A stretch of DNA of 39,657 bases from Candidatus Heimdallarchaeota archaeon (GTDB taxonomy: Archaea > Asgardarchaeota > Heimdallarchaeia > Heimdallarchaeales > Heimdallarchaeaceae): NCBI GenBank assembly GCA_030607575.1, contig JAUWJS010000009.1, positions 1 to 39,657 on the forward strand, written 5' to 3'. Below the pieces are notes generated by a model. The model saw only the letters and a list, made by a program, of their open reading frames with translations. It was not told where the DNA came from and made no database searches. This document shows, piece after piece, positions 2,465 to 22,471 of this stretch (the stretch's first letter is position 1; every line of letters begins with the position of its first letter). The translations under genes were made by a program, and so were the position numbers.

Positions 2465-4180
2465 CTACGAGTAGAGAAAGGTCTCCAATACCAGTTTTTC
2501 ATGAATCTCTTTATACATTGCAACGATGGTTTCTTTAGCTATTTCTTTAGCGAATTTACGTTTTATTCTCTCCTCAGGTTTTCTCTTTCTCCAGATATTG
2601 GAAACGAGCTGATAGAACAGTTTAGCAAAATAGTAGAGACTTAGGGGAAGGGCTAATATGACTTTGAAGATGAATAATAATACCTTCCAAAGCATTCCAA
2701 GAGATTCTTTAGCTTCTGCCTTTGTTGCTTCGTCTAATTCCTCATGAGGTTCATCAGCAAGGAGCAAGGAGTTTAATCCTTTTTGGATTTCGATAAATTT
2801 AGATCCAAGATAGACAGCTGATCTCTTTGTCCAGTTTTTAGAAAACATCATCTTGAATCGATTTCCAATGTGTTTTCCATAATGATAGAAAATCAGGAAA
2901 AACTCGAAAAATGGTATAAAGATACCTATTACCATGTTTCTGGTTTTTTTAGCAATTCTCTTAATGAACTTTTCTTTGGATAGATGGTCTAGAAAGTATC
3001 TTCGACCTCCTAAAGCAATAGAAAATGCTAGTTGATTATATTCTAAATCACTAAAAGGAAGGTCATATTTCTCTTCAACTTTCATAATACCTTTCAATGC
3101 TCCATTGAGCAGAATAGAACTGAAAAATTCTTTTGAAACAAATTGCTCATCAAGCTTTCTTCTTACAAAATTAAAAGTTTGTTTAGCTTCCTTATATTTC
3201 ATAGAATTTTGCTCTGCAAAACTTGCTAAACCAGGTTCTTTTAGGAATGGAATAAGGTAAGTTTCTTTTTGCCATAAAAGAAGAGAAAACACTCTAGAAA
3301 TAGATTCTTCTATATTGTTCATGTCGAGTCTATCTTCAGTTTCAGAAGAAAGAAATTCTTCGTAAAGATTCTTAGTTTTATCAGGCAAAGAGAAAGAAGA
3401 AACACTCACTATATTAGTAAATCGTTCTCTTAGGGTAGTTAAATCTCCAACAATATCTAGCTTGAATTCTTCATAAGTGGAAGCATCGACAGGTGGAGAT
3501 TCAAAAAACGTAAAGCTTGCTTTGGAAGCTATATATGGTAGAGCAAAAACATTCTCTAATCTCTGATAGAATGACCCCCAACTATATGCACCCATTTGAA
3601 CTAATCTTAAACTGGAACGATGAAAAATAGCATAGATAGGTCCGAAAATGGTTGCTACAAAAGAAAGCATACCCATAACGGTTGAGCAAACAACTCCAAA
3701 CAAAGTTATAACTACCCAAAGAGCTTTATCACCAAGTGAGCTCAACCAAGCACTCTTACTGATAATCCCATCAATAAGGGCATCAAAACTGATGGTTTGG
3801 CTACCAATCAAAACAATGGAAGCTGCAACAATTAAAACAATAATTAGGAGATGATCATAAGTTTCTCCAACACCTCTTTGAATAGGATAAGCTTTGTTAA
3901 TCCTATCTTCTTTCATAACAACTTCATCAATCTCTTCCTCAAATTTAACTAATTCCATTTTTTCAAGACTAGAGAAGAGGTTAGAGATATAGAGAAGATA
4001 CCGTCGCCAGAGATTAAGTATAGGTACTAATTCTCGAAGACCTCGAGGAATGAGAAGCTCGTAAATAAAATACAATATCTTAACAAGAACTACAATAAAA
4101 TAGAGAAGAAGACCAAGTACCCAAAGAAAAGGAGTAAGGACAACTGTAAGGATATTGCTAAAGAATTTTTTCATGTACAT
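2465..4180 (-). CDS. Multi-pass membrane protein, uncharacterised family (paralogue 1 of 3)
   Basis: I do not recognise the family. The protein of 571 residues has hydrophobic spans near 10-42, 109-130, 152-190, 415-435 and 500-525, with a long charged helical region (about 232-410) between. It is clearly related to the proteins at 18639-20684 and 20744-22471 by shared blocks: PRGLRELVP (45-53), a helix ending in EIDEVVMKE, YPIQRGVGE (98-106), TIFGPIYAIFH (177-187), GAYSW...LENVFALPY (197-216), SPPV (228-231), and a C-terminal amphipathic segment AKETIVAMYKEIHEKL. This copy lacks the extra N-terminal region of the 681-residue paralogue. A second ATG at codon 3 is an alternative start; an AT-rich TATA-like stretch at 4199-4210 suits a leaderless message. 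Function unknown. Confidence 0.8.
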   Translation of the reverse strand: MYMKKFFSNILTVVLTPFLWVLGLLLYFIVVLVKILYFIYELLIPRGLRELVPILNLWRRYLLYISNLFSSLEKMELVKFEEEIDEVVMKEDRINKAYPIQRGVGETYDHLLIIVLIVAASIVLIGSQTISFDALIDGIISKSAWLSSLGDKALWVVITLFGVVCSTVMGMLSFVATIFGPIYAIFHRSSLRLVQMGAYSWGSFYQRLENVFALPYIASKASFTFFESPPVDASTYEEFKLDIVGDLTTLRERFTNIVSVSSFSLPDKTKNLYEEFLSSETEDRLDMNNIEESISRVFSLLLWQKETYLIPFLKEPGLASFAEQNSMKYKEAKQTFNFVRRKLDEQFVSKEFFSSILLNGALKGIMKVEEKYDLPFSDLEYNQLAFSIALGGRRYFLDHLSKEKFIKRIAKKTRNMVIGIFIPFFEFFLIFYHYGKHIGNRFKMMFSKNWTKRSAVYLGSKFIEIQKGLNSLLLADEPHEELDEATKAEAKESLGMLWKVLLFIFKVILALPLSLYYFAKLFYQLVSNIWRKRKPEERIKRKFAKEIAKETIVAMYKEIHEKLVLETFLYS

Positions 4181-6412: not shown

Positions 6413-7249
6413 ATGCAAATAACAATAGTTTCCGGCAAAGGAGGAACTGGAAAAACCTCTCTTGCTGTTAGCTTAGCGATGACATTAGAGAACGTTCAGC
6501 TTCTTGATGCAGATGTTGATGAGCCTAATTGTTCTCTATTTCTAGACTTAAACACTAAACTAGTAGCAGAAGCAAAGATACCTATTCCTGAGATTAATTA
6601 CGATCTGTGCACTTTATGTGGTGCCTGTAGTTCAAATTGTGAATATAATGCACTTATGAAAGTTCCGGATCAGATTCTTGTTTTTGAAAAAATGTGCCAT
6701 GGGTGTGGATTATGTAGCAAAATATGTCCTGAAAATGCTATCACTGAAGTACCTAGAACCATAGGTCATCTCTACGAGGGTAAAAATGAAGATTTTCTTT
6801 TTAATTTCGGAGCATTAATAGTAGGTGAAGAATTATCTACACCGGTAATTTCTCAGTTAAAACAATTAATCTCTAAAGATAAACCTATAATCGTAATTGA
6901 TTCACCCCCTGGATCCTCATGTCCTATGGTTGAAACGGTTATTGATTCAGATTATGTCATTTTAGTCAGCGAACCAACACCATTTGGACTTTCTGACATG
7001 AAAATGGTTGTAAAAACATTAAGGATTCTTGAAAAGAAGTTTGGAGTAGTTATAAACAAAGATGGAGTAGGAAATAAAGAATTAGAATTGTACTGTCAAA
7101 AAGAAGAAATACCTGTTCTTCTCAAAATTCCTTTCAATCTAGAAATAGCTAGGAACTATTCCGAAGGAATTCCTTTCTTAAATGTTCTACCGGGTATGGA
7201 TTCAGAACTTAAACAAATGATTGTTGATATTAGGGAGGCTTTACAATGA
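6413..7249 (+). CDS. MinD-family ATPase with inserted 2x[4Fe-4S] ferredoxin domain (first)
   Basis: P-loop ATPase of the MinD/Mrp superfamily with a ferredoxin domain built in (COG1149 type), probably cytosolic and involved in making or moving an iron-sulfur or mixed metal cluster. The deviant Walker A K-G-G-T-G-K-T is at 9-15 and the switch DADVDEPN at 32-39. The insert has two complete four-cysteine sets: C66, C69, C72, C76 and C95, C98, C101, C105. IVIDSPPGSSCP acts as the Walker B/switch II region with a cysteine shortly after. At 278 residues it is full length. Stop and start overlap by four bases (ATGA) with the next gene, so the two ATPases are probably made in step and form a heterodimer. 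Confidence 0.92.
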   Translation: MQITIVSGKGGTGKTSLAVSLAMTLENVQLLDADVDEPNCSLFLDLNTKLVAEAKIPIPEINYDLCTLCGACSSNCEYNALMKVPDQILVFEKMCHGCGLCSKICPENAITEVPRTIGHLYEGKNEDFLFNFGALIVGEELSTPVISQLKQLISKDKPIIVIDSPPGSSCPMVETVIDSDYVILVSEPTPFGLSDMKMVVKTLRILEKKFGVVINKDGVGNKELELYCQKEEIPVLLKIPFNLEIARNYSEGIPFLNVLPGMDSELKQMIVDIREALQ

Positions 7250-15512: not shown

Positions 15513-15965
15513 ATGGATTTTTCAAACCCTATCGATGACCTTGATTGGATTTATGGCTTCTGGAGAGGAACCCTCTCTGCTGAGGGTATAGATTCTGAAT
15601 CTTACCTACAATGTAAAAAATTTGGTATAGATATTATAGAAATTAAACAAATAAAATCCTCTGTTAAACCAGAAAAGTTGCTTGAAAGGAATTTTCTCTT
15701 TTTTGATAAAACTAGGGAACAAATGAAATTGATCAGTTTTAATTCTGAAGGTTACATCGAAACATCCAATTTAACTATAAAAACTTCCAAAGAACAGGCT
15801 ATTCTAACTAGTGATTTCGAATCTGGATATAATCTACCTCCCAACATGAAAATCATTAAGGAATTTACTTACAAAAAGAATACGAAACAGCTTGAAATTA
15901 AAGTTAAAATGGGTTTAAAGGAAGAAATTGTATCTCATGGGATTTATACTTTTTCAGGTAAATAA
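15513..15965 (+). CDS. Small beta-rich protein, possibly lipocalin/nitrobindin-like
   Basis: 150 residues, no firm family. The start DDLDWIYGFWRGTLSAEG resembles the first strand of DUF1579/nitrobindin-like ten-stranded barrels, which open with a W-x-G-x-W-x-G-pattern. The rest alternates as short strands (DIIEIKQIKSS, QMKLISFNSEGYIETSNLTI, AILTSDFE, KIIKEFTYKK, QLEIKVKMG, SHGIYTFSG), matching an antiparallel barrel for a small hydrophobic ligand or heme. The nitrobindin heme histidine is not evident. It is cytosolic and divergent from RNase III, with which it may share a TATA box. The leaderless start is supported by TATA spacing. Confidence 0.6.
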   Translation: MDFSNPIDDLDWIYGFWRGTLSAEGIDSESYLQCKKFGIDIIEIKQIKSSVKPEKLLERNFLFFDKTREQMKLISFNSEGYIETSNLTIKTSKEQAILTSDFESGYNLPPNMKIIKEFTYKKNTKQLEIKVKMGLKEEIVSHGIYTFSGK

Positions 15966-16056: not shown

Positions 16057-16548
16057 TTGCCTAGGGATTTTAAAATTTATTATTGTGAAAAAATCACTGA
16101 TGAAGTCTCAGAACATGTTGAGAGATTCCTTAGTGACATCTATCAAATGCAGTTCAGATCTGTAGGTGTAAGAATCCCTAGACAAGTAGCTTGGAATACC
16201 GAAAAAAACGCTTTTGATGCCCAACTACTTCTAAACAATGCTCAATCTGAAGGATTATCCTTTTTTCTTTGGTTAATCGAATATTCATTAATTGTTAATA
16301 ATGTGTATGTTTTCGGATATGGAGAGACTATCAAGGGAACAATTGTGTCTACAGCTAGAATGGCAACTAGAACACTTACAGCAAAAGAAGTAGCATTTCA
16401 AGTTGGGATAGTTTTAGGTTTGAAACCATGTGATGGAGATTGTTTAATGAAAGAAGCTGATAGTTTTGAAGCTCTTATACAAAAACCCTCTACTTTATGT
16501 AACACATGTTCAGTAAAGTTTCAACGGGTTAAAATGAGATACATTTAA
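16057..16548 (+). CDS. Archaemetzincin-family protein lacking the catalytic zinc motif
   Basis: 163 residues clearly of the archaemetzincin (AmzA) family: the N-terminal KIYYCEKITDEV, then VNNVYVFGYGETIKGTIVST (80-99) corresponding to the family NFVFGxA...G...ST segment, and the C-terminal structural zinc site C125, C129, C148, C151 with the family methionine at M131. The catalytic motif HExxHxxGxxH is gone: F114, Q115, I118 and P124 replace the His, Glu, His and third His, while G121 and the following Cys are kept. It therefore cannot bind catalytic zinc in the normal way. A binding or regulatory role is likelier than proteolysis. Start is TTG at 16057; no in-frame ATG exists upstream near enough. 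The frame is intact, so it is not a decayed gene. Confidence 0.75.
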   Translation: MPRDFKIYYCEKITDEVSEHVERFLSDIYQMQFRSVGVRIPRQVAWNTEKNAFDAQLLLNNAQSEGLSFFLWLIEYSLIVNNVYVFGYGETIKGTIVSTARMATRTLTAKEVAFQVGIVLGLKPCDGDCLMKEADSFEALIQKPSTLCNTCSVKFQRVKMRYI

Positions 16549-16612: not shown

Positions 16613-18583
16613 ATGTCGGATATTCTATTGGGTTCTCTTAATCATTTAGAAAATATGCTTTTTCAAATAAATAGCTTGATTCTAGAGAACAATCTCTTTG
16701 ATGAAGATGAGCTGTTAGGTAGCTTCAAGGTTTTTGGGGGATTATATCTGACATCCTGTGCTGAAAAATATAACTTGATAGAACCTAGTCTATCTTTTAA
16801 GAAGAAATTCTCAAAGATTTTGAAAGCTTTCCCTACTTTATATGATATTGAAATATATGAGCAATTTTCTCAATTCTACCCTAAAATAATTGAAATAAGA
16901 AATAAGTTTGGTAATGAAATAGGTTTGGACCCCTTAGGGAATCTATATCAGAAGATTTTAACAAAAACAGCGAAGCAAGGGAAAGGAATAGTTTTTACAC
17001 CAATTTACATAATAAAGTATATTCTTCACCAAGTAGGGTTTCCTAACAGATATTCAATAAGAGATAAACAAAGTATTATTGATTTATCGTCAGGATCAGG
17101 ATTATTTCTAGCACAAGCAATTGACTTACTGATTGAGCATGATGTAGACAATTTTTCTGTAAATGAAATAATTGATTATATTCAAAATTATATTGTTGGA
17201 TTTGATATTGACCCTCTAGCAGTATTTATCTCCAAATTTAATCTATCACTGATATTAATTGAACGATTTAAAGAGAAATATAATTTAGAAACATCCTTCT
17301 CTCCTAACATTTATCTTACAAACTCGCTGGACAAACAAGGAGAGGGAGATATTTTTGAAGTTAAGAAAGCAAAAAATCAACAGTATGATTTTGTTGTAGG
17401 TAACCCACCCTATATTGAAGCAAAAAGGATGGATAAACTGACTAAGAAGATTTGTTTGCTTAATTACCCTAAAGCTGCTAGAGGTCATTTTGACGTTTAT
17501 TCTTGCTTTTTAGAACTTGGTACTGATCTGTTAAAATCCAATGGAAAACTTGGATACATCATCCCCAGTAAATTTCTTAGTTCAAGATATTCAAAAGAAA
17601 TGAGAAGATATTTCCTTGAACATAATCTTATTTCAGAAATTGTTGATTTAACACATCAGAAGGTCTTTCTTCCAGCTGTTTATCCTGTCATACTCATTTT
17701 AGATAAGAATAGACTGAATGAGGAGACAATCAAACTCGCTAATAACGTTGATTATGGAGAGTTACAAACAATGAACTTCAAATCAAAGTGTAAATATGTT
17801 TCCGCAGATTTTTTTTATAAAACTACAAACAAAACCATTTTTCTTCCAGATTCAACTTCCCTTTCAATAATAGATAAGATTTACAGTGATTCTGAATATA
17901 AACTAGGCGATTTAGTTAGATTTAGATGGTCAATTTCATTTCATAGGAGAGGATTACGAGAACATTTTGTATTTGAAAAGCCAGTTAGTACCAAATCTAG
18001 GAAATTTCTAGGTGGTAAACCTTTTGGTGGAAATAGAGAAGTTGAACGATATGCTATTAACTGGAGAGGTTACTATTTGGATTATAACCATGAGAAAGCT
18101 AAGGGAATGAAAAATAACTTTCCTGAAATGGATATATTTACATCAAAGAAGATAATTATATGTCAACATGCTCTAAGGATGAGAGCAACATTAGATACTG
18201 AGGGATATATATGTAAAGATATTTTCTTACTAGGACACTTGACACAAAAAGCTAGGGACTTAAGCATCAGTCTTGAACTTATTCTTTCTCTTTTAAATTC
18301 AGAGTTATTCAGCTTTATGTATTCTATAATGTATTCAAGTACTGAGATAACCGGAAAATATCTACATTATCTACCAATGTATCTTCATGATCTACCTTTT
18401 ATTATTCCTGATAATCTACAGAATGAGTTGCTTATTCAGAAAGTGAATTTATTACTTAAGCAAGAACAATTAGATACCTCATTAGATGAAGAAGTAGACA
18501 ACTTAGTTTATGGTTTGTTTAAAGTAGATGAAGAAGAAAGAAAGTATGCAAAAAAACATATAAATCAATATCTTGTGAAATAG
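16613..18583 (+). CDS. Adenine-N6 DNA methyltransferase (Eco57I/TaqI type)
   Basis: 656-residue gamma-type N6-adenine methyltransferase. Motif X is GIVFTPIYIIKYIL (125-138), motif I is D157 to G163 (DLSSGSGLF) for S-adenosylmethionine, GFDIDPLAV (196-204) is motif II, and N-P-P-Y at 264-267 is the catalytic motif IV. The C-terminal half (about 390-620) looks like a TaqI/Eco57I target-recognition domain, with LGDLVRFRWSISF and a LLNSELFSFMYS segment common at its end. There is no nuclease motif at the N-terminus, so it is not a self-contained type IIG enzyme. No restriction gene is adjacent; the next gene, 55 bases on, is a membrane protein. It could be an orphan epigenetic methylase or the remainder of a defence system. 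Confidence 0.88.
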   Translation: MSDILLGSLNHLENMLFQINSLILENNLFDEDELLGSFKVFGGLYLTSCAEKYNLIEPSLSFKKKFSKILKAFPTLYDIEIYEQFSQFYPKIIEIRNKFGNEIGLDPLGNLYQKILTKTAKQGKGIVFTPIYIIKYILHQVGFPNRYSIRDKQSIIDLSSGSGLFLAQAIDLLIEHDVDNFSVNEIIDYIQNYIVGFDIDPLAVFISKFNLSLILIERFKEKYNLETSFSPNIYLTNSLDKQGEGDIFEVKKAKNQQYDFVVGNPPYIEAKRMDKLTKKICLLNYPKAARGHFDVYSCFLELGTDLLKSNGKLGYIIPSKFLSSRYSKEMRRYFLEHNLISEIVDLTHQKVFLPAVYPVILILDKNRLNEETIKLANNVDYGELQTMNFKSKCKYVSADFFYKTTNKTIFLPDSTSLSIIDKIYSDSEYKLGDLVRFRWSISFHRRGLREHFVFEKPVSTKSRKFLGGKPFGGNREVERYAINWRGYYLDYNHEKAKGMKNNFPEMDIFTSKKIIICQHALRMRATLDTEGYICKDIFLLGHLTQKARDLSISLELILSLLNSELFSFMYSIMYSSTEITGKYLHYLPMYLHDLPFIIPDNLQNELLIQKVNLLLKQEQLDTSLDEEVDNLVYGLFKVDEEERKYAKKHINQYLVK

Positions 18584-18638: not shown

Positions 18639-20684
18639 ATGTCAAAAAAAGAAGAACCAACAATTATAAGTGATGAACGAAGAAAGGTTGGTTTTTCTTC
18701 ACGCATCAAAGAATTAGGAACAAAACAAGTTGAAAAAATAAAAGAAGCTTCCATTTCAGTTCAAGAGAAACTGCAAAGAGGGGCTGGAAAATTTTGGGTT
18801 TGGTTCAAAATCAAAGTTAAGGAATTTTGGAATTTTCTGAAAGAATATGTTTTTCACTATTATACTCCTATAGGATTCTTAATTCTGTTTGAATACTATA
18901 TTTTTATCTGGCCTATTTTGAAATTTCTTAAAATATTCTTCTATATAATTTTCCCCCCAAGACTAAGAAGATATTCAGTTAAGAAACTGAAAACTTTTTG
19001 GCAAACTCTACAAGTCAAAGTATTCCCAGTATTGATGAAAATTTCATTCATAATTCTAGCAGTTCTTTTCACAATTGTTACAGCTATTGGAAAGTTAAGT
19101 TTGATATTATTTGATATACTTGTTCCCAGAGGTTTAAGAGAATTAGTCCCACTACTGCAGATGTACAGAAAATATGCTCTTACAGTTGCTAATTTCCTTT
19201 CTGGGAAAAAATCTAAAGAAATTCTAGAAGTTTCGCAGGAATTAGACGAAATAGTCCTTAAAGAACGACAAATGATTAAAGCTTATCCAATTCGAAGAGG
19301 TGTGGGAGAGGTCATTAATGTTGCAATAGGAACTCCAATAATTATAATTGTTATTCCAGCAGCTATAGGGAGATTTTTTGGCATTGAGGGTTTAGATCTT
19401 ATACAGGTTTTTCAGGATTATATTGGAATAAAACCATTCTGGACTATTGCTTTGTTTGGAACAGGTTTACTTGTAGTTTCTTGGGTTGCAACAATATTCG
19501 GACCAATATATGCATTATTCCACGAATGTAGTGTTTATCTAATGAGATGGGGAGCATATCGATGGGCAAACATTTACAGAACCTTAGAGAACTTCTTCTC
19601 TTTACCATATCATGCAGCAAAATCTTCTTTCAGCTTCTTTGATGCTCCACCTGTATCTACGGAAACAATGGTGGAATTTAGACTAGAAATTATGGAAGAA
19701 GTAGATGCTATGAAAGATAAAGTTCAACAGCTTCTTTCTCTTGATCCAAGGAATGTTCCAGAGAGGTCGAAAAATAACTTAGAAAGACTTCTAAATGAAG
19801 CAGAATTATCATTAAATGAGTTAGATATATCAAAAATAACAAAACAAACAGGAAGGACTTTCGCTTTACTTATTTGGTCAAAGGAATCGTCTATTGTTCC
19901 ATGGTTGAGACAGGAAGCTAAAGCAAGATTTGCAAAGAAGAATAATATGAGTCGAAAAGAAGTTGAAAAAGCGTTCAAAGTGATTCTTACAAAAATAGAT
20001 GAAGGTTATATTAGCTACGATCTTTTTTCATCTGTTCTTATTACAGGGGCTCTCAAGGGAGTTGCAAAACAGCAAGCAAAATACGAACAAATAATGCCAG
20101 ATGTTGAATATAATAAATTAGCAATTTCATTAGCTCTTGGTGCTCAACAGTATATCAAAGATGAATTTAGTAGTATACCTCGGTATAAAAGATTAGGAAG
20201 GAAATTAGGAATTTCTCTTATCGCACCCTTTATGCCCTTTGGAATGCTTTTGTACATTTTCTATAAATTTATCAGACATGTAATTGTTTCTACATTTAGA
20301 GCAATTATTTCTATAGGTACAAGAAAGATAATCAGATTCTTCTCTCATAGATTTAAGGAGATATCTGAAACATTAACCACAACATACGATAACGTTCAGA
20401 AACGAGGGAAAACATTCAGTTGGAAAAGGGATTTGAATATTGATTTTGCTGAAATCTTTAAAAAGAGCTTCAATTTTTTGATTAAACTCCTACCTATGAT
20501 TATCTGGTTATTTTTTAAGGGGATTTATAGGTTTATCAGTCGAATATGGACAAGAAGAAGTATTGAGGAGAAGCAGAGAAGAGAGTTTGAGAGAGAGTTA
20601 ACCACAGAATCTTTAGTAGCTATGTATGAAGAAATCTATGATAAATTACTAATAACAGATTTACTACTTTCTAAACAAGAGTAA
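18639..20684 (+). CDS. Multi-pass membrane protein, uncharacterised family (paralogue 2 of 3)
   Basis: 681 residues, the longest of three related membrane proteins. Residues 1-110 are an extension: a charged helical segment then a span (YTPIGFLILFEYYIFIWPIL, 75-94) and FYIIFPPRLRR, which partly echoes the later PRGLRELVP. The conserved core follows: a span at 132-158, VPRGLRELVP (162-171), KSKEILEVSQELDEIVLKE, YPIRRGVGE (216-224), spans near 225-245 and 268-295, TIFGPIYALFH (285-295), GAYRWANIYRTLENFFSLPY (305-324) and APPV. A soluble helical region with TGALKGV and NKLAISLALGAQQY comes next, then two further spans and the C-terminal ELTTESLVAMYEEIYDKL. GATATTTAAC (18590) is a possible TATA. 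Function unknown. Confidence 0.8.
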   Translation: MSKKEEPTIISDERRKVGFSSRIKELGTKQVEKIKEASISVQEKLQRGAGKFWVWFKIKVKEFWNFLKEYVFHYYTPIGFLILFEYYIFIWPILKFLKIFFYIIFPPRLRRYSVKKLKTFWQTLQVKVFPVLMKISFIILAVLFTIVTAIGKLSLILFDILVPRGLRELVPLLQMYRKYALTVANFLSGKKSKEILEVSQELDEIVLKERQMIKAYPIRRGVGEVINVAIGTPIIIIVIPAAIGRFFGIEGLDLIQVFQDYIGIKPFWTIALFGTGLLVVSWVATIFGPIYALFHECSVYLMRWGAYRWANIYRTLENFFSLPYHAAKSSFSFFDAPPVSTETMVEFRLEIMEEVDAMKDKVQQLLSLDPRNVPERSKNNLERLLNEAELSLNELDISKITKQTGRTFALLIWSKESSIVPWLRQEAKARFAKKNNMSRKEVEKAFKVILTKIDEGYISYDLFSSVLITGALKGVAKQQAKYEQIMPDVEYNKLAISLALGAQQYIKDEFSSIPRYKRLGRKLGISLIAPFMPFGMLLYIFYKFIRHVIVSTFRAIISIGTRKIIRFFSHRFKEISETLTTTYDNVQKRGKTFSWKRDLNIDFAEIFKKSFNFLIKLLPMIIWLFFKGIYRFISRIWTRRSIEEKQRREFERELTTESLVAMYEEIYDKLLITDLLLSKQE

Positions 20685-20743: not shown

Positions 20744-22471
20744 ATGGCTTTTTCAGATAATAAGGGTGAATCAAAGGAAATTGTAGATAAACAAGAAGAA
20801 GTTATCGAAGGAGAAGAAGTTGATAAAGAGGATGTGAAAGAAGAATCTAAAGATAGAAAGATTTCATTTTCAATTGTTGCCTTCTTTATAACTATGATTT
20901 CTGTAGGTGCAAAATTTGCCTTAATAATTTTTGATATTTTTGTACCAAAAACTTTACGTGAATATGTTCCATTCTTCAATATGATGAGAAAAATAACCCT
21001 TCCAATATCTGAAATAATGGCAGGTAAGAAATCAAAAGAGATATCTGAAGTTGCAAATGAGATTGATGAACTTGAATTAAGAGGCCAGAAAGTTATGAAA
21101 GCTTATCCTTTACGTAGAACGATCGGTCAAGCAATGACCATGGGAATATCGCCTATTATTTTAGTTCTAATCCCTACCATTATCTGGGGAAAAGGATTTG
21201 TAGGATATCTTAATGATTATTTACCCCCCGTAGTAAGTATTATGCTATTAGGTACATTAATGCTCTTAATTTCCTGGGTAGTAACCTTATTTGGACCTAT
21301 TTATGTTGTTTTTCACAACTCAAGTAAATATCTATTGAAGATGGGAGCTTACAGATGGGCTTCAATCTACCAAGATCTAGAAAATATTTTTGCTATTCCT
21401 TATTATGCTGCAAGATCCTCCTTTTCTTTTCTTGCTTCACCACCAATCTCTAGTGAAACCTTTGAGGAATTCAAGCTTGATATTAAAAATGAGCTAGATG
21501 TAGTGAAGGAAAAAGTCGAAGGTCTTTTATCCCTAGATACTAAACATGTTCCTGACAGATCGAAAAAAGAGCTAGAGAAACTTCTCAAGAAAATCGATAT
21601 ACCTTTAACAGAATTTGATTTAGCGAAAGTAAAAGATTCTACATCCAGAACCTTCGCTTTACTAATTTGGGCTAAGGAAGAGTCAATTTTCCCATGGAGA
21701 AAAAATGAAGCTTTAGAAAGATTTGCAATAAGAAATAAATTGACTGTTGAGGAAGCTGAAGAAGTATTCTATACCCTAAACAGGAAGAGAAAGAAAGAAG
21801 GACTTACAGAAGAAACTATTAAATCAATTCTAATAACAGGAGCATTAAAAGGAATAGATCAACAAGAAGAGAAATATAATCAAATTATGGATGATATAGA
21901 ATCTAATAAGCTTGCCATTTCCTTAGCTCTAGGAGCTGAACAATATCTTGAAGATATATACAGACCTCTACCAAAATTCGTTGTTATCTTAAAAGCTATT
22001 GGAGTGTCTTTACTGGCAATTTTAATGCCATTTCTACTTATTATTCTAGCTGTTTTATTATACATCAAACACTTACTTTTTACTTTAGTTAAAACCATTT
22101 TCTCTAAAGGTACAATTCAAATCCATATATACATCAGAAGAAGGTACTCTGAAATCAGGGGGAATTTAATTGAAACATATCGATCAGTAAGACAAAAGGG
22201 TAAAGAATTTAGTTTCAAAGAAGATTTGGATTTTAGCTTCAAGAAATTCTTCCTATCATTTGGTAAAATTTTCCTTAAATTCCTATTATTCTTAATTAAA
22301 CTTGCTTCACTATGGTCATTGTGGAAATCTCTTTATGTTAGAATTGTTAAACTAATCCAAAGAAGAAGACCTGAAAATAGGATGCGAAGAATGTTCGAAA
22401 AAGAACTCACAACAGAATCATTGGTTTTTATGTATCAAGAAATATATGAGAAAATAGTTGTTCAAAAGTAA
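20744..22471 (+). CDS. Multi-pass membrane protein, uncharacterised family (paralogue 3 of 3)
   Basis: 575 residues, closest to its upstream neighbour. It opens with an acidic tail (EEVIEGEEVDKEDVKEES, about 18-35), then a span at 41-66, VPKTLREYVP (67-76), GKKSKEISEVANEIDELEL, YPLRRTIGQ (121-129), two span regions, TLFGPIYVVFH, GAYRWASIYQDLENIFAIPY and SPPI. The middle soluble region keeps ITGALKG and NKLAISLALGAEQY, and the C-terminus keeps ELTTESLVFMYQEIYEKI. It begins 59 bases after the previous gene; CTTTAAAAT (20712-20720) about 28 bases before the ATG suggests its own leaderless promoter. Tandem duplication followed by divergence is the likely origin. Confidence 0.8.
   Translation: MAFSDNKGESKEIVDKQEEVIEGEEVDKEDVKEESKDRKISFSIVAFFITMISVGAKFALIIFDIFVPKTLREYVPFFNMMRKITLPISEIMAGKKSKEISEVANEIDELELRGQKVMKAYPLRRTIGQAMTMGISPIILVLIPTIIWGKGFVGYLNDYLPPVVSIMLLGTLMLLISWVVTLFGPIYVVFHNSSKYLLKMGAYRWASIYQDLENIFAIPYYAARSSFSFLASPPISSETFEEFKLDIKNELDVVKEKVEGLLSLDTKHVPDRSKKELEKLLKKIDIPLTEFDLAKVKDSTSRTFALLIWAKEESIFPWRKNEALERFAIRNKLTVEEAEEVFYTLNRKRKKEGLTEETIKSILITGALKGIDQQEEKYNQIMDDIESNKLAISLALGAEQYLEDIYRPLPKFVVILKAIGVSLLAILMPFLLIILAVLLYIKHLLFTLVKTIFSKGTIQIHIYIRRRYSEIRGNLIETYRSVRQKGKEFSFKEDLDFSFKKFFLSFGKIFLKFLLFLIKLASLWSLWKSLYVRIVKLIQRRRPENRMRRMFEKELTTESLVFMYQEIYEKIVVQK

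Follow-up and report, generated by a model that had tools for sequence, protein, structure and literature searches.

CarG of Myxococcus xanthus is an inactive archaemetzincin in which the Glu of the HExxH motif has been replaced by Gln (PMC3427221). It forms part of a transcriptional regulator and is bound by CarD (PMC3427221; PMC4374960), and both CarD and CarG have been reported from myxobacteria only (PMC4374960). The archaeal AmzA proteins (MEROPS M54; 3zvs/4axq from A. fulgidus, 2x7m from M. kandleri) carry a four-cysteine (Cys4) site with a structural role, without which M. kandleri AmzA, like CarG, becomes unstable (PMC3427221). Vertebrate AMZ1 also has an incomplete set of zinc ligands, with the third His alone replaced, and aminopeptidase activity has been claimed for it (PMC3427221). 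A 2024 review on inactive metallopeptidases leaves archaemetzincins unmentioned (PMC11266112). The non-proteolytic myxobacterial archaemetzincin-like protein is represented by an NCBIfam model, NF033824.

Heimdall archaea belong to the Asgard archaea and are close to the eukaryote lineage. We identified a catalytically dead archaemetzincin paralogue, AMZi, in the genome of a Candidatus Heimdallarchaeota archaeon, within a stretch of 39,657 nucleotides (contig JAUWJS010000009.1) that is referred to below as the window. The gene and its main features are as follows.

16057..16548, plus strand: AMZi, a catalytically dead archaemetzincin (M54) paralogue of 163 amino acids with a TTG start.
16396..16431, plus strand: the former HExxHxxGxxH-C motif, codons 114-125, now F-Q-V-G-I-V-L-G-L-K-P-C, from the alignment.
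16429..16509, plus strand: the Cys4 zinc site C125, C129, C148 and C151 together with the Met-turn residue M131, from the alignment, with the structural role taken from PMC3427221.

The open reading frame is uninterrupted up to its stop codon, and TTG is the start codon, at the same position, in all 19 orthologues. AMZi passes the gathering cut-off of the Pfam family Peptidase_M54 (PF07998; 29.6 bits against 24.4) and matches the NCBIfam archaemetzincin model NF033823 at 1.3e-15, although this lies under the curated cut-off of that model. A sequence search matched it to A. fulgidus AmzA (3zvs/4axq, 3.6e-6), and an AMZi profile aligned with 4axq over residues 6-155 (1e-12); AMZi is also homologous over 155 columns to the intact paralogue found in its archaeal family (E 1.3e-26). 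The matches to M54 profiles are thus significant across the domain. An AlphaFold2 model built with eight orthologues as input was too poor for a fold search (mean pLDDT 48.7, pTM 0.36), so the fold and the cleft shape rest on homology. We found no match to the AMZi profile in viral contigs, nor any in a search of plasmid proteins, and there is therefore no indication that the gene is carried by phages or plasmids.

The sequence-only reading had described this protein as an archaemetzincin homologue with its entire catalytic motif replaced, and both the M54 profiles and the AmzA alignment confirm it. In the window protein HExxHxxGxxH-C is replaced by FQVGIVLGLKPC, and in the alignment with A. 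fulgidus AmzA VHEIGHVLGLKHC faces AFQVGIVLGLKPC, so that the register given earlier (F114, Q115, I118, P124, C125) is correct. All three zinc His and the catalytic Glu are absent from 19/19 orthologues, which leaves none of them with the motif of an active M54 peptidase. Also gone are the R-x-Q segment and, within the DLYVP stretch, its acidic residue, both of which are invariant in the intact copies of the family. Other features singled out in that reading (the Cys4 site, M131, a glycine and the open frame) are indeed kept: C125, C129, C148, C151, M131, G117 and G121 are invariant across the 19 orthologues, and position 114 is always aromatic (F or Y). The cysteine spacing is that of A. fulgidus AmzA, and at the level of residues AMZi thus retains both the Cys4 site and the Met-turn Met of the M54 fold. 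As the Cys4 site is structural and stability is lost without it, this would account for its retention. We predict that AMZi retains a metzincin fold built on its structural zinc but is unable to hold a catalytic zinc or to cleave peptides, and it is almost certainly a pseudoenzyme, a pseudo-archaemetzincin.

AMZi therefore resembles AmzA in its full-length homology, Cys4 spacing, Met-turn Met and edge-strand segment, but differs from it by the absence of the catalytic zinc ligands, the catalytic Glu, the R-x-Q segment and the DLYVP acidic residue. With CarG it shares an archaemetzincin fold and a predicted non-proteolytic role, and the structural cysteines are essential in CarG; unlike CarG, for which the reported change is Glu to Gln, AMZi loses all four residues, and the hosts are unrelated. 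It scores 19.9 bits against NF033824, where the cut-off is 250 and where the intact paralogue scores higher, and is therefore not a CarG. AMZ1 shares the incomplete ligand set but lacks only one His. The sequence-only reading knew of no described family of inactive archaemetzincins, which CarG (PMC3427221) and NF033824 contradict. Inactive archaemetzincins are thus already known, and what is new is the complete loss of the catalytic site in the Heimdall clade; we found no paper on this clade in the open-access literature.

The alignment included 59 other archaemetzincins of the phylum, 15 belonging to the same family and 44 more distant; of these, 58 have the full H/E/H/H set and one has a change of E to Q. 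The Gln-bearing protein (L044, G051 contig C180, around 6806-7162), from another family of the same class, reads HQIGHVCGLEHC, with Glu replaced by Gln as in CarG; it was seen in one genome alone and looks like an independent inactivation. Three archaemetzincins (L081, L084 and L098, in G116, G153 and G119) are longer, at about 250-270 residues, because of an added N-terminal region, and have one additional residue between the second and third zinc His, for example HEVGHLVLGPDHC.

When the family and 227 genomes of the phylum were searched, 19 full-length AMZi orthologues were recovered, including that of the window. Eighteen belong to a single genus and the remaining one (G001) to another genus of the same Heimdallarchaeota family; they are 44-100% identical to the window protein. 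Pairwise Nei-Gojobori dN/dS values for close pairs are about 0.08-0.25, in the same range as those of the intact paralogue, and indicate that AMZi is held by purifying selection. Maximum-likelihood analysis of 75 sequences places all 19 dead copies in a single clade (support 100/100), whose sister is the group of 15 intact copies of the family (95/85). The stem of the dead clade is long (1.71 changes per column), and long-branch attraction could affect the exact sister group, so the single origin is surer than the sister relation. A search with the NCBIfam model detected no archaemetzincin elsewhere in the order (f2 to f4) or in G002. Loss of AMZi from G003 and G010 was considered and rejected, since their contigs start inside or just before the downstream methyltransferase gene, and no trace of the locus was found in G014, a genome that is 82% complete. 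We infer that AMZi arose by duplication in an ancestor shared by two or more genera of the family, changed fast and then came under constraint again. It is real, conserved and ancient within its family. The retained non-enzymatic function proposed from the single sequence is thus supported by the single origin, the 19 orthologues, the purifying selection and the newly conserved segments described below. The comparison with relatives proposed at that time found the same loss in every orthologue; none has an intact HExxH, and the dN/dS values show no relaxed selection.

The distribution of constraint within the protein has shifted, as judged from per-column entropy in dead and intact copies.

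16153..16194, plus strand: a newly constrained segment, residues 33-46 (FRSVGVRIPRQVAW), from column entropy against the active paralogues.
16306..16389, plus strand: the region of the cleft edge strand, residues 84-111, placed by homology, with the role of the edge strand taken from PMC3427221.

The former catalytic helix has become less conserved in AMZi, with a mean entropy of 0.85 bits compared with 0.44 in the intact copies. Constraint has been gained by residues 33-46 (0.51 against 1.93 bits), which rank among the best conserved stretches of AMZi, and by residues 1-11 (0.59 against 1.27). These values should be taken as indicative, not as tests, because the sampling is uneven, six AMZi sequences being about 90% identical. 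Residues 84-111 contain four invariant positions, G94 and K110 as well as the newly invariant E90 and K93, and the basic C-terminal tail has acquired invariant R161 and Y162. These shifts fit a new binding surface on a retained scaffold. Taken as a whole, the observations are best explained by a pseudo-archaemetzincin that acts as a non-catalytic binding module, a role that we consider probable.

The gene directly upstream, NBL, encodes a candidate partner.

15513..15965, plus strand: NBL, a nitrobindin-like beta-barrel gene of 150 residues, identified by Pfam, structure model and Foldseek.

NBL lies 91 bp upstream of AMZi in the window, adjacent and co-directional, and at 73-104 bp on the shared strand in the 18 compared loci. 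Its profile is present in exactly the 19 AMZi genomes among the 227 of the phylum. Five of seven NBL orthologues match the THAP4/nitrobindin heme-binding barrel PF08768 (best 1.1e-7), and the predicted model (pLDDT 87.1) has ten strands arranged as a putative nitrobindin-fold barrel, for which Foldseek found Arabidopsis nitrobindin (3wjf/2a13; TM 0.64-0.71, E about 1e-5). An NBL profile found no match among solved structures, and the similarity to those structures comes from the fold search only. NBL thus shares PF08768 and the Arabidopsis fold with nitrobindin/THAP4 but differs in having no invariant His among 18 sequences; heme binding through a conserved proximal His of the nitrobindin type appears doubtful, and NBL may bind a ligand other than heme. 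The association with AMZi is also weaker than it appears, because the gene block around the two genes is syntenic as a whole in these genomes, because AMZi and NBL are each probably of single origin and may have arrived once together, and because the three genus members without AMZi and NBL have the locus cut off or unassembled. A specific partnership between NBL and AMZi is therefore tentative, in effect a guess.

We suggest the following model. After duplication of an archaemetzincin in the ancestor of the two genera, AMZi would have kept the metzincin fold around its structural zinc while losing the catalytic zinc and peptide cleavage. Residues 1-11, residues 33-46 and E90/K93 at the cleft edge may then hold a partner, of which the barrel protein encoded by the adjacent NBL gene would be the likeliest, and the two might form a small regulatory or sensing complex. 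The broad model for such an arrangement would be CarG, by analogy, as a non-proteolytic component of a transcription regulator. A speculative extension, which we regard as rather unlikely in this full form, is that AMZi and NBL make up a new Heimdallarchaeota complex: AMZi, a peptidase fold without its catalytic metal, would do the binding and the barrel, possibly devoid of heme, would sense a ligand, so that an enzyme and a heme protein would both have been converted into parts of a regulator.

Alternatively, AMZi may be a factor linked to transcription or DNA, either in the manner of CarG or jointly with a DNA methyltransferase encoded downstream.

16613..18583, plus strand: an Eco57I/TaqI-like adenine N6 DNA methyltransferase with an intact NPPY motif, the downstream neighbour of AMZi.

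The precedent is CarG, an inactive archaemetzincin required for the control of transcription; the intact Eco57I-like methyltransferase follows AMZi in every locus compared, and a basic tail with invariant R161 and Y162 would suit such a role. The score against the CarG model, lower than that of the intact paralogue, argues against it, as do the occurrence of the methyltransferase in G002 without AMZi and the separation of the two genes by about 1.3 kb in four genomes (G005, G006, G007 and G016). The intervening gene was read in G005, where it encodes a 430-residue protein with several cysteines on the opposite strand (L055, 8299-9591, minus strand), and the gap is equally long in the other three. 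The methyltransferase as prime functional partner of AMZi was rejected on the grounds of G002 and the inserted gene, and we consider a transcription- or DNA-linked role the strongest of the alternatives but one with the odds clearly against it. The window also encodes three similar-looking multi-pass membrane proteins (2465-4180, minus strand; 18639-20684 and 20744-22471, both plus strand), the last two of which form a tandem pair downstream of AMZi that is kept in several relatives; the one of the three that was searched (18639-20684) has no Pfam match.

A second alternative, raised in the sequence-only reading together with the expectation of an active copy elsewhere in the genome, is that AMZi regulates intact AmzA, perhaps as a dimer partner without catalytic activity or as a substrate-binding decoy. 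The active copy does exist: an archaemetzincin with HECGHILGLGH is encoded on another contig of the genome of the window (G000, contig C89, 472-930), and dead and intact copies occur together in 13 of the 19 AMZi genomes. Pseudoenzymes are moreover known to regulate active relatives (PMC11266112). An obligate association with an active copy nevertheless fails, as none was found in six of the 19 AMZi genomes. Five of these (G009, G017, G018, G021 and G022; completeness 91, 81, 79, 84 and 92%) form one clade in the tree, and neither protein nor HMM searches recovered an intact copy from them; assuming independent misses, incompleteness alone would produce all five with a chance of about 5e-5. 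The sixth, G013, has close relatives that possess the intact copy. With the dead copy alone in a clade of five genomes, AMZi is unlikely to serve generally as a regulator of active AmzA, and we place this explanation behind the preceding one.

A further possibility, that the old site now accommodates a different metal or a cofactor, perhaps by way of H115, and that AMZi has a new catalytic activity, finds some encouragement in the His present at position 115 in 11/19 orthologues. Yet position 115 may be H, Q or F, position 118 is I, K, R, L, T or F, and position 124, occupied by nine different residues, is the fourth most variable of the 163 columns. With the first variable and the other two free, there is therefore no conserved ligand set left at the old site, and we consider this explanation very improbable. 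Finally, the idea that AMZi is a pseudogene in decay or the product of faulty sequencing or assembly, which the lost motif and nothing else favours, is refuted by 19 intact orthologues in separate genomes, dN/dS well below 1 and the invariant cysteines, and merits practically no credence.

Archaemetzincins are poorly understood even when intact, and two crystallised archaeal members of the family showed no activity in standard assays (PMC3427221). In AMZi the fold and the structural zinc site have been kept and the catalytic residues dropped, and searches of some of the genomes recovered no active copy; this suggests that the archaemetzincin scaffold is useful in a non-catalytic capacity. The AMZi lineage thus offers a natural test of what the non-catalytic surfaces of these proteins bind.
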